Part shown: piece by piece, positions 49,110 through 56,247 of the stretch
Layout of the letters: each line of letters opens with the position of its first letter
Position numbering within the stretch: the stretch's first letter is position 1
NCBI GenBank assembly: GCA_903833275.1
Contig: CAILEP010000006.1
Location: forward strand, 1 to 64,000
Reading direction: 5' to 3'
Length of the DNA: 64,000 bases
Source of the DNA: an uncultured Bdellovibrionales bacterium
Lineage (GTDB): Bacteria > Bdellovibrionota > Bdellovibrionia > Bdellovibrionales > UBA1609
Notes under the pieces: model-generated
What the model saw: only the letters and a program-made list of their open reading frames with translations
What the model was told of the DNA's origin: nothing
Databases searched by the model: none
Program-made: the position numbers and the translations under genes

Positions 49110-50618
49110 ATGAGCTCATCTAATTCGAACCAAAAATACCCCGATTTTTCACGCGCCGAGTGCACGGCAGTAGTGAGTGACCTGCATCTATGCGAAGAAG
49201 AGCCGATTAACAAAAAATTTCCACTCTGGAAGAAATATAAAACGCGACAGTTTTTTTTCGACCAAGACTTTATGCTATTCATCGATCGACTTGAAGAAAT
49301 GGCCAAGGGTCGATCGATTGAGCTCATTCTCAATGGCGACATATTCGACTTTGATAGCGTCATGAGCCAGCCGACCGATGCGCCCTATTCAGTCACATGG
49401 CTTGAAAACCACAGGGGTCTACACCCTCAAGAAGAAAAAAGCGTTTATAAAATTGAAGTTATTTTGGCGGCGCATGAAGAATGGGTCGCAGCGATCCGAA
49501 AATTTTTACTGCGCGGCCATCGCGCGATTTTTACTATTGGCAATCACGATCTCGAAATGCATTATCCGAAAGTTCAAGAGGCCATTGTGCGAGCCCTGCA
49601 GTTGCCCGGGGCGCAAAAGCAAAACGTGCGCTTCAACGAATGGTTCTACATCTCAAACGGCGACACGCTCATTGAGCACGGAAATCAGTACGACCCTTAT
49701 TGTATGGCACAAGACCCGGTAAGCCCCTTTATCGTCAAGTTCAATCAAATTGAAGTGCGCCTGCCCTTTGGCAATTTGACGACCAGATATTTAATTAACG
49801 GAATGGGTTTTTTTAATCCGCATCTCGACACAAACTTTATTATGACTCCGAAGGAGTATGTGTCTTTTTTCTTAAAGTATATGCTTCAGGCCCAGCCCGA
49901 TTTAATTTTAACCTGGTTTTGGGGTTCGATGGTGACGCTTGTGCAGTCGTTTTTTGATCGGCTGCGCCCGACCATTTCTGATCCGCTGGGTATCGAAGAT
50001 CGAATCGAAACTGTGGCCGAGAAGGCCAACACCACTCCGCGAGTGGTGCGAGAATTGAAAGAACTATTTGTGGCACCTGCCGCGAGTTATCCATCCATTA
50101 TTTTGCGCGAGCTTTGGCTCGATAGAGCCTTTTTGGTTCTGCTGACAATTTTTGTGCTTTATTTTATATTTCTTCAGATTGATCATCTCTTTAGAATTTC
50201 AATATTTTGGACGTTCATCCCGTTTTTTCTCTTTATTCCGTTCTTTCTTTTCTACGCGCGCTCAGTGCGCTCAGAAGTTCACAACTACAAAGAGCCGCGC
50301 GAGCGAGAAATGAATTTAGCGGGCGTCATCGCCAAAGTTTCGCGAATCATTTATGGCCACACCCATATAGTTCGGCACGAAATGATTGGCGCCATTGAGC
50401 ACCTAAATAGCGGCACCTGGTCTCCGGCCTTTCAAGATGTGGAGTGCAATCGGCCCATGGGTCAAAAGACCTTCATTTGGATACAGCCCAGCGATGAAGG
50501 GCGGCGCGAGGCGCGCGCTTTTCAAATTAAAGATGGTGAAGTTATTGACGTTTTTCCGGGAGCGGGCGGAAAAATCGATCGCAAAAAAATGGGCAAAAAA
50601 GAACCAAATGACGCATAG
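49110..50618 (+). CDS. Membrane-associated calcineurin-like metallophosphoesterase
   Basis: 502 residues. Metal-binding blocks of the calcineurin-like fold are present: VVSDLHL near 22-28, LNGDIFDFD near 72-80, TIGNHDLEMHY near 145-155, and a late YGHTHIVRHE near 412-421. Between them, hydrophobic segments near 343-380 suggest two transmembrane helices. The domain order (N-terminal D-x-H, late G-H-x-H) is that of the full phosphoesterase, with a large insertion. Substrate not evident; it could act on nucleotides, phospholipid or UDP-sugar derivatives. Confidence 0.82.
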   Translation: MSSSNSNQKYPDFSRAECTAVVSDLHLCEEEPINKKFPLWKKYKTRQFFFDQDFMLFIDRLEEMAKGRSIELILNGDIFDFDSVMSQPTDAPYSVTWLENHRGLHPQEEKSVYKIEVILAAHEEWVAAIRKFLLRGHRAIFTIGNHDLEMHYPKVQEAIVRALQLPGAQKQNVRFNEWFYISNGDTLIEHGNQYDPYCMAQDPVSPFIVKFNQIEVRLPFGNLTTRYLINGMGFFNPHLDTNFIMTPKEYVSFFLKYMLQAQPDLILTWFWGSMVTLVQSFFDRLRPTISDPLGIEDRIETVAEKANTTPRVVRELKELFVAPAASYPSIILRELWLDRAFLVLLTIFVLYFIFLQIDHLFRISIFWTFIPFFLFIPFFLFYARSVRSEVHNYKEPREREMNLAGVIAKVSRIIYGHTHIVRHEMIGAIEHLNSGTWSPAFQDVECNRPMGQKTFIWIQPSDEGRREARAFQIKDGEVIDVFPGAGGKIDRKKMGKKEPNDA

Positions 50619-50696: not shown

Positions 50697-50716
50697 GATC
50701 CGAAAGGGGTATTCTA

Positions 50717-50911
50717 ATGGCTGAAGTTCTTGTCGTAACAAGCAAAGTAAAAAAGTTTATCAAATCAATGGGCGACTGCAATACGTCAGCGGAGACCGTA
50801 GCCGTTTTGAGCGCAGCCGTTGAAAAACTCTGCCGCAAGGGCGTTGATAGCGCAAAAGCTGACGGTCGCAAAACCGTTATGGCTCGCGATATCGTTATCG
50901 ATCATATTTAA
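50717..50911 (+). CDS. Bacterial histone-fold protein (Bd0055-like)
   Basis: 64 residues with a compact histone fold: a short helix 1 (TSKVKKFIKS), a long helix 2 (SAETVAVLSAAVEKLCRKGVDSAKA) and the hallmark C-terminal loop and helix DGRKTVMARDIVIDH. The archaeal histone equivalent is AKHAGRKT(I/V)KAEDIEL, so R51-K52-T53 and D58 are shared. It closely resembles the short bacterial histone Bd0055 of Bdellovibrio, reported as an abundant chromatin protein. Start ATG at 50717 with AAAGGGG. It is a single-histone protein without tails, expected to dimerise. Neighbour ligA is on the opposite strand. Confidence 0.93.
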   Translation: MAEVLVVTSKVKKFIKSMGDCNTSAETVAVLSAAVEKLCRKGVDSAKADGRKTVMARDIVIDHI

Positions 50912-50922
50912 TTATTAATAAT

Positions 50923-53064
<2,142 letters not shown>

Positions 53065-53069
53065 CTAAA

Positions 53070-53345
53070 GTGATTGATGTAAAGAAGGTTGCCCATTTGG
53101 CTCGCCTCGCCATTAGCGACGATGAAGAAAAAACGTACAAAGCTCAGATGAGCACGATCTTTAAACATTTCGAAGAAATTGCGAGTGTTGATACTAAGAA
53201 TGTTGAGCCGCTGATTACTCCAACAGATATGAAGCTCGTCTTTCGCGAAGATAAGCGCGAGGTTGTGCTAACGGTTGAAGAGGCGATGAAAAATGCTCCA
53301 GAAAAATCAGGTAACTTGTTTAAAGTTCCGCCGGTCGTGGGGTAG
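53070..53345 (+). CDS. gatC: Aspartyl/glutamyl-tRNA amidotransferase subunit C
   Basis: Small GatCAB subunit that stabilises GatA and GatB, 91 residues. The helical start VKKVAHLARLAISDDE, EEIASVDTKNVEPL and the C-terminal PVVG tail are typical. Start GTG at 53070 with AAGGAG upstream. First gene of gatC-gatA-gatB; divergent from ligA. Confidence 0.95.
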   Translation: MIDVKKVAHLARLAISDDEEKTYKAQMSTIFKHFEEIASVDTKNVEPLITPTDMKLVFREDKREVVLTVEEAMKNAPEKSGNLFKVPPVVG

Positions 53346-53348
53346 GCG

Positions 53349-54824
53349 ATGAGCATTATTGAAAAAAACCTTACAGAACTTTGTGATGCCGTACAAAAGC
53401 GCGAACTTAAATCTGAAGCGATTACTAAGGCGTTTTTGGATCAATCGACTCGTCTCAATCCAAAACTTAACGCCTACATAACGATGAACGAGAAGGCGCT
53501 TGAGCAAGCGCGCGACGTGGATAAAAAAATCGCGAGTGGCGCTAAAGTGGGCCGCTTGGCGGGTGTGCCGATTGCGATCAAAGATATGCTTTGCACAAAA
53601 GGCATAAAGACCACGGCGGGTTCGAAAATTTTGCATAACTTTATACCGCAATATTCGGCAGCGGTTGTTGAGAAGCTTGAGGGTGCTGGCGCGATCACCA
53701 TCGGCAAAACAAACCAAGACGAATTTGCTATGGGTTCAAGTACAGAAACTTCGCATTACGGCATTTGTCGAAACCCCTGGTCAACAGACTATGTGCCCGG
53801 CGGCTCAAGCGGTGGCTCGGCAGCGGCTGTTTCGGCCAGAATGGCGCCGATGGCAATCGGTACCGACACGGGTGGTTCGGTTCGGCAGCCTGCAAATTTT
53901 TGCGGCATCGTTGGCGTTAAGCCCACATACGGTCGAGTTAGTCGTTATGGGATTGTAGCCTACGCGTCGAGCCTCGATCAGGCGGGCCCAATGGGGCACA
54001 CCGTTCAAGATTGCGCGACAATCATGGAAGTTATTTCTGGCAAGGACGTTCGAGATACGACCTCGGCCCAAGAGGCTGTACCTGAATGGTCAAAAAATTT
54101 AACCGACAATTTAAAGGGCCTTAAGATTGGTTTGCCGAAAGAGTATTTTGCTGAAGGCGTTAGCGATGATGTTCGCAAGGTCGTAAAAAATGCGATTGAT
54201 ATAGCCAAAGCAGCGGGGGCTGAAATTGTTGATGTCAGTTTGCCACTGACTCATTTGGGCGTGGCCGTTTATTACTTGGTTGCAACCTGTGAGGCGTCTA
54301 GCAATCTTGCGCGCTATGATGGCGTTCGATTTGGATATCGATCTGACTTTGAAAAAAGCCCAGCCGTTGACGTTGACGACTTTTATAGCCGCAATCGAGG
54401 CGAAGGGTTTGGCTCAGAGGTGAAGCGTCGAATTATGCTTGGCACCTACGCGCTTTCAAGTGGCTACTACGATGCCTACTATAAAAAAGCCTGCCAAGTG
54501 CGGCGGCTCTTGAGACAAAACTTTCTCGACGCATTTAAGAAATGCGATGTGTTGTTGAGCCCCGCCAGCACTACTCCGGCGTTTAAGATTGGCGAACGCA
54601 TTGAGAGCCCAATTGAAATGTACTTAAACGATATTTACACCACTTCGACAAATTTGGCCGGCCTGCCGGGGATGAGTGTTCCGGGTGGCTTTAGCAAAGA
54701 CAAGTTGCCGATCGGTGTGCAGATTATGGCCGCCCATTTTCAAGAACAAAAAATGCTCAATGTTGGGTACGCAATTGAAAAAAGTTTAAATCTAACTCGC
54801 GAGGTGCCCAATGTCGTACGGTAA
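53349..54824 (+). CDS. gatA: Glutamyl-tRNA(Gln) amidotransferase subunit A
   Basis: Amidase subunit that makes ammonia from glutamine for transamidation of misacylated tRNA. 491 residues with the amidase-signature triad: Lys 78 in GVPIAIKDML, cis-Ser 153 in PGGSSGGSAAA and nucleophilic Ser 177 in TGGSVRQPANFCG. The presence of the complex implies that Gln-tRNA and/or Asn-tRNA is formed indirectly. gatB overlaps its end by 14 nt. Confidence 0.97.
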   Translation: MSIIEKNLTELCDAVQKRELKSEAITKAFLDQSTRLNPKLNAYITMNEKALEQARDVDKKIASGAKVGRLAGVPIAIKDMLCTKGIKTTAGSKILHNFIPQYSAAVVEKLEGAGAITIGKTNQDEFAMGSSTETSHYGICRNPWSTDYVPGGSSGGSAAAVSARMAPMAIGTDTGGSVRQPANFCGIVGVKPTYGRVSRYGIVAYASSLDQAGPMGHTVQDCATIMEVISGKDVRDTTSAQEAVPEWSKNLTDNLKGLKIGLPKEYFAEGVSDDVRKVVKNAIDIAKAAGAEIVDVSLPLTHLGVAVYYLVATCEASSNLARYDGVRFGYRSDFEKSPAVDVDDFYSRNRGEGFGSEVKRRIMLGTYALSSGYYDAYYKKACQVRRLLRQNFLDAFKKCDVLLSPASTTPAFKIGERIESPIEMYLNDIYTTSTNLAGLPGMSVPGGFSKDKLPIGVQIMAAHFQEQKMLNVGYAIEKSLNLTREVPNVVR

Positions 54825-56247
54825 TTGGGAGCCCGTTATCGGTCTCGAAATTCACGCGCAACTCATGACAGACAGCAAAATGTTCGCGCCCGAATCAGCA
54901 GCGTACGGTGGGGCTGACAATGAATACACCAGCCCGATAAGTCTCGGGATGCCAGGTGCGCTTCCGTCAATTAATCATCGGGCGGTCGAGTTTTCGATTC
55001 GCATTGGCCTCGCGCTCAATTGCCGAATCAACCCGCATTCGGTCTTCGCGCGTAAAAATTATTTTTACCCTGATTTGCCCAAGGGCTATCAGATCTCGCA
55101 ATTTGACCAACCACTTTGTGAAAAGGGCTTCTTGGACGTTTTTATCGACGGCAAGGCAAAACGGATAGGCATTACCCGCGCACACATGGAAGAAGACGCC
55201 GGCAAGTCGACCCACCACGGCGACTATTCGTTAATAAATCTAAATCGCGCGGGCGTACCATTGCTCGAGATTGTTTCAGAGCCCGATATAGCTTCAGCAC
55301 AAGAGGCGGCGGAGTATGCCCGTTCAGTTCGAAATATATTGCGCTACCTCGAGGTTTGCGACGGCAATCTCGAAGAAGGTTCGATGCGCTGTGATTGTAA
55401 CGTGTCTGTTCGAAAAAAGGGCGACACAAAACTTGGCACCAGAACCGAAATTAAAAACGTAAACTCTTTTCGCTTTGTAGAAAAGGCGATTGATTACGAA
55501 ATTCAAAGGCAAATCGCGAGCATTGAATCGGGCGAGCGCATTGTGCAAGAAACCCGACTTTATGATTCGACCAAAAACAGAACATTTACGATGCGAAGCA
55601 AAGAAGAAGCGCACGACTATCGTTATTTTCCGGACCCTGATCTATTGCCGCTTGTTTTTGATAGTTCGTGGACGGATCAAATTCGCGCCAAATTGCCCGA
55701 ACTACCGCGCGAAAAGGCGACGCGATTTCAAACGCAATACGGGTTGCCCGAGTATGATGCGCTTGTGCTGACTCAAGAGCGGGGCGTTTCAGAATATTTT
55801 GAGGCGGTTGCTAAAATTTGCGGCAACGCAAAGGCCGCGTCAAACTGGGTGATGGTTGAGCTGATGCGTGAGCTGAAAGAGACCGACAAATCTATCGAGG
55901 CACAGCCGATTAAATCTAACCAGTTGGGCGATTTGATTCTACTTATCGATAAAGGCACGATTTCAGGCAAAATAGCCAAATCGGTCTTTGCCGAAATGTG
56001 GGCAAGCGGTGGTAACCCGGCTGATATTATTAAAGCTAAGGGCCTTGTTCAAATTAGTGACACCGGTGCGCTTGAGAAAATAATTGCCGATGTAATTGCG
56101 GCTAGCCCTGGGCAAGTTGCTGAATATCGATCAGGCAAAGAGAAGCTTTTTGGATTTTTTGTCGGTCAAGTGATGAAGGCCTCTAAGGGCCAAGCGAACC
56201 CAGATCTGGTTAACCAAATTTTGAAAGAGAAACTGAAGGGGTCGTAA
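54811..56247 (+). CDS. gatB: Aspartyl/glutamyl-tRNA(Asn/Gln) amidotransferase subunit B
   Basis: tRNA-binding and kinase-type subunit of GatCAB, 478 residues. Family blocks are GLEIHAQL near the start, LGMPGALPSIN, KNYFYPDLPKGYQISQ, EEDAGKSTH, RAGVPLLEIVSEPD and the C-terminal helical YqeY-like tail. It overlaps gatA and is directly followed (0 nt gap) by the Ppx/GppA gene. Confidence 0.97.
   Translation: MSYGNWEPVIGLEIHAQLMTDSKMFAPESAAYGGADNEYTSPISLGMPGALPSINHRAVEFSIRIGLALNCRINPHSVFARKNYFYPDLPKGYQISQFDQPLCEKGFLDVFIDGKAKRIGITRAHMEEDAGKSTHHGDYSLINLNRAGVPLLEIVSEPDIASAQEAAEYARSVRNILRYLEVCDGNLEEGSMRCDCNVSVRKKGDTKLGTRTEIKNVNSFRFVEKAIDYEIQRQIASIESGERIVQETRLYDSTKNRTFTMRSKEEAHDYRYFPDPDLLPLVFDSSWTDQIRAKLPELPREKATRFQTQYGLPEYDALVLTQERGVSEYFEAVAKICGNAKAASNWVMVELMRELKETDKSIEAQPIKSNQLGDLILLIDKGTISGKIAKSVFAEMWASGGNPADIIKAKGLVQISDTGALEKIIADVIAASPGQVAEYRSGKEKLFGFFVGQVMKASKGQANPDLVNQILKEKLKGS

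Follow-up and report, generated by a model that had tools for sequence, protein, structure and literature searches.

The window, a 64,000-nucleotide stretch of DNA from an uncultured Bdellovibrionales bacterium, encodes a 64-residue ortholog of Bd0055 (HBb), the histone of Bdellovibrio bacteriovorus HD100 (Q6MRM1). Orthology is evident from sequence, fold, and a gene order common to both organisms, and the protein is almost certainly an HBb-type chromatin histone. Histones of this kind are already published (PMC10627809, PMC11317129, PMC11390915); that bacterial histones challenge the notion of DNA organization by HU-type proteins only is a point made between 2023 and 2025 with Bd0055/HBb and the Leptospira histone HLp. 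The present locus adds a close HBb ortholog and shows a stable histone gene neighborhood across the order. Of greater use, as a by-product, is the finding of a clade whose syntenic orthologs lack the RD clamp, an element common to archaeal, eukaryotic, and bacterial histones.

The hbb gene and its product

The hbb reading frame (Table 1) comprises an ATG start, 64 codons, and a TAA stop, and is a real gene. A phmmer search against solved structures returned the B. bacteriovorus histone (8FVX, 8FW7, 8CMP, 9EZZ, and 9F0E) with an E-value of 2.1e-27 across residues 1–64, which excludes a match by chance. A gene on the opposite strand of the same interval was ruled out, as stops close the reading, and phage origin was rejected, matches to PHROGs being at chance level only. 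A promoter scan found no sigma-70-like site, the count lying below the shuffled mean.

Table 1. Coordinates of the hbb locus and of related features; positions after an L number refer to that locus, all others to the window
Feature	Position	Strand	Basis or remark
hbb (bd0055 ortholog), 64-residue bacterial histone	50717..50911	+	ORF list, translation, PDB phmmer, AlphaFold2, Foldseek, ortholog alignment
Shine-Dalgarno-like purine-rich GAAAGGGG	50702..50709	+	7 nt upstream of the hbb ATG, by sequence
Metallophosphoesterase-like, C-terminal membrane segments, upstream neighbor	49110..50618	+	Name from sequence reading; kept upstream in most relatives
ligA, NAD-dependent DNA ligase, convergent neighbor	50923..52935	-	ORF runs to 53058, likely start ATG at ~52935; adjacency kept in relatives
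Weak terminator-like hairpin inside ligA 3' end	50951..50963	+	Chance level (found 1, expected 0.7)
gatC-gatA-gatB, conserved surroundings	53070..56247	+	ORF list, relatives' loci
Clamp-less homologues	L115:4995-5198, L116:4995-5207, L118:2959-3168, L119:2986-3195, L137:1501-1701, L138:885-1085	+	
Clamp-less homologues	L117:4929-5153, L134:1501-1710	-	
Short ORFs preceding the clamp-less histone	L115:4580-4828, L116:4579-4842, L117:5160-5375(-), L118:2612-2923, L119:2480-2770		
Intermediate HBb of G013	L120:2938-3144	-	
Second histone-domain protein, contig C32	L002:1204-1695		

The product, MAEVLVVTSKVKKFIKSMGDCNTSAETVAVLSAAVEKLCRKGVDSAKADGRKTVMARDIVIDHI, has a calculated pI of 9.1 (8.85 for HBb). 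It aligns to HBb, also of 64 residues, without gaps and with 51 identities (80%); the 13 substitutions spare all of the reported main DNA contacts. The next phmmer match after HBb is the archaeal histone HTkC (9f2c, 4e-7), followed by weak matches to other archaeal and Leptospira histones. Among family models, PF00808 (CBFD_NFYB_HMF) scored 22.0 bits, narrowly over its cut-off of 21.4, and the NCBIfam archaeal histone model NF043032 scored 27.5 bits, under the cut-off of 50 that marks nucleosomal archaeal histones. A PF00808 search of the protein's own genome returned no match at E 0.001, though the protein passes the hmmscan cut-off. The model is therefore too weak for surveying the bacterial histone class, and protein and alignment queries were used in its place.

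Structure prediction with AlphaFold2, given 39 orthologs, yielded with moderate confidence (pLDDT 74) a short helix α1 (residues 9–17), a long α2 (24–48), and a one-turn α3 (56–58). These are joined by the loops L1 (18–23) and L2 (49–55); the motif D49-G-R-K-T53-V, with its GRKTV in L2, is followed by A56-R-D-I59. The five best Foldseek matches in the PDB are HBb chains; HTkC comes next, and HLp lies lower in the list. Superposition of the single-chain model on HBb gave a TM score of 0.57 with an rmsd of about 6 Å, probably because the model is mispacked, the fold needing its dimer partner. What can be drawn from the model is the helix order and the Foldseek matches, and not the exact pose. 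These results bear out a sequence-only reading of the same DNA, which had described a 64-residue protein with GRKT and ARDI, a short first and a long second helix, a likeness to Bdellovibrio Bd0055, and a position beside ligA: the convergent ligA is indeed the next gene, its stop codon 11 bp away.

DNA contacts, class, and binding mode

The main DNA contacts of HBb are N22, R57, S9, T53, T8, S24, K10, K12, K52, and K16, and its RD clamp joins R51 to D58 with the aid of D49 (PMC11317129). All of these residues are identical in the window protein, which also resembles HBb in length and locus. Across 63 aligned sequences, S9, K10, K16, N22, T23, R51, K52, T53, R57, and D58 are invariant. Dimer-core positions of the window protein are hydrophobic: V11, L31, V35 (I in HBb), L38, and I59.

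Comparison with other histones places the protein in a class. It has the features of bacterial dimers: the RKT...D motif; the α1 lysines; S9-K10; a shortened α2; and a one-turn α3. The α3-truncated fold and the RD clamp are common to HLp of Leptospira perolatii (9QT0), which forms face-to-face (FtF) tetramers through R49 and N53 (PMC12701072). Counted from the common clamp arginine, the matching positions hold S45 and D49 in the window protein. With the tetramer residues absent, it is filed as a "bacterial dimer" α3-truncated histone in the scheme of PMC11390915, the assignment to the Bd0055/HBb cluster being made by identity and E-value, and the CLANS clustering itself being that of the published scheme. 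Dimerization, DNA binding, and bending would carry over from HBb. The archaeal histones HMfB and HTk share the histone fold and the RKT and RD-clamp motif, but differ in their longer α2 and α3, sprocket arginine, tetramer interface, and hypernucleosome wrapping. ZZ histones (PMC11390915) have a similar, bacterial-dimer-like C-terminal domain, and differ in carrying an N-terminal zinc-binding domain; the 64-residue window protein consists of the histone fold without a zinc finger.

In the proposed working mode, two chains would form a head-to-tail pair joined by their long α2 helices. The dimer would grip the DNA backbone at minor grooves by means of its L1-L2 loops (N22, T23, and S24 with K52, T53, and R57), and the α1 ends (T8, S9, K10, K12, and K16) would provide further backbone grips. 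DNA would be bent irrespective of sequence, with neither tetramers nor long wrapped stacks being formed. Such bending is quite probably how the window protein works, by analogy with the HBb dimer, whose sequence-independent minor-groove binding produces a bend of ~84 degrees over 36 bp (PMC11317129).

The two co-crystal studies of HBb conflict on its mode, however: Hocher et al. describe straight DNA within a dimer sheath (PMC10627809), as opposed to bending (PMC11317129). The same histone might thus bind end-on, forming a nucleohistone filament on straight DNA rather than isolated bending dimers. This arrangement was seen in the Bd0055-DNA co-crystal 8FW7, and the contact residues are conserved in the window protein. 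Both modes draw on the conserved residues, and the sequence therefore does not tell them apart; the solution bending, second crystal interface, and bent-DNA simulations of Hu et al. (PMC11317129) make the end-on mode unlikely. (Hocher et al. also found that exchanging S45, A48, and I61 led to Bd0055 bringing DNA ends together (PMC10627809); the window protein has the Bd0055 residues at all three positions.) An FtF tetramer wrapping about 60 bp, as in HLp, is far less probable. The FtF-forming HTkC is the next relative in sequence and fold, with HLp further down, but the replacement of both HLp tetramer residues and the 80% identity to HBb argue against it. Least probable of all is a role outside chromatin, as a DUF1931-type protein or a histone-fold transcription factor, given that the weak DUF1931 match (14.7 bits, under the cut-off of 21.8) stands against a far stronger HBb match, retention of every DNA contact, and near-universal presence in the order.

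Bd0055 is the top nucleoid-fraction protein in B. bacteriovorus, and resists deletion (PMC10627809). By analogy, high abundance and near-essentiality would extend to the window protein, which presumably serves as a major chromatin protein here, as the earlier reading had proposed; measurements to that effect come from B. bacteriovorus and Leptospira only. The genome also carries three HU/IHF-family genes, so histone and HU-type proteins coexist. In addition, contig C32 encodes a 163-residue protein whose N-terminus bears Cys and His residues and whose C-terminal domain is HBb-like (49% over residues 3–59). It is a ZZ-histone candidate, its putative zinc finger recognized by the cysteine pattern only; no Pfam ZZ model scored on it. 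B. bacteriovorus has one ZZ histone, of low expression (PMC11390915), which is probably Bd3044.

Gene neighborhood and distribution

The typical gene order is metallophosphoesterase, histone, convergent ligA, and gatCAB, and close orthologs (60–86% identity) are nearly all found in it. By manual count, 76 of 80 loci have ligA within the fetched 4 kb, in convergent orientation with few exceptions; gatCA(B) follows it, and the metallophosphoesterase usually precedes the histone. The order metallophosphoesterase-hbb-ligA-gatCA recurs in B. bacteriovorus kdesi (L068). A typical Bdellovibrio-type hbb-ligA-gatCA locus also occurs in a contig titled Streptomyces griseus (L094, CALQIT020000112.1), probably a mislabelled MAG.

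A histone match was found in 58 of 60 relatives. Real loss from G004 and G028 was rejected: the contigs of both genomes break off inside or at ligA, short of the histone site, which makes the missing match an assembly effect. Searching with a divergent-clade profile gave matches in 102 of 103 good genomes of the order, in which the HBb-type histone is close to universal. The description of such proteins as rare thus stands across bacteria, but not within this order. Of 223 genomes sampled from the phylum, 206 match, a count that takes in longer paralogs.

Selection on the gene is strongly purifying. Among 62 ungapped orthologs, differences average 10.5, 8.2, and 35.2 of 64 at codon positions 1, 2, and 3, respectively, and the median dN/dS is ~0.08 (37 pairs with unsaturated synonymous sites).

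A clade without the RD clamp

Eight genomes of 1.4–2.0 Mb, from three genera of one family (G006; G017, G032, and G140; G018, G033, G133, and G134), encode a homologue of 67–74 residues, with no canonical HBb detected. It lies directly beside ligA in G006, G018, G133, and G134, and a gap separates it from the nearby ligA end in G017 and G140; the contigs that carry it in G032 and G033 have no ligA match. Its loop reads DKLKTVKxxHVP, compared with DGRKTVMARDIV in HBb: R51 is replaced by L; D58 by H; and R57 by N, A, S, or H. Six of the eight keep T53 and two have V there; K10, K12, K16, S24, and K52 are retained, and the C-terminal tail is longer.

A profile from five members matches HBb with an E-value of 6.5e-11. 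For one member, AlphaFold2 run on an alignment that included HBb relatives gave a model at pLDDT 90, whose best structural matches are HBb and HLp (TM 0.69–0.73 by query). From this modeling, the homologue can confidently be predicted to keep the histone fold. The members form one group on a long branch with 100/100 support, in a midpoint-rooted tree of 64 columns whose bootstrap is not fully settled, and which speaks to the grouping only, not to nesting within canonical HBb.

A generally fast rate of evolution does not fully account for clamp loss, because other fast-evolving or small genomes retain HBb. The LigA of G013 is about as diverged (39–43%), yet its HBb is 58% identical with an intact clamp; the 1.2–1.3 Mb genomes G021 and G034 retain HBb at 69–72%. 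(The G013 histone, an intermediate HBb with a slightly extended N-terminus, adjoins the fast-evolving ligA.) Tentatively, and at somewhat less than even chance, the clade may have an altered mode of DNA binding or use a rebuilt L2 loop for it; if so, it would be a natural test of the role of the RD clamp. This clade was not found in the main texts of the bacterial-histone articles cited here, though their supplementary tables may include it. The usual metallophosphoesterase site, ahead of the histone, is taken in this clade by a short ORF whose N-terminus resembles a signal peptide (L115–L119; Table 1).
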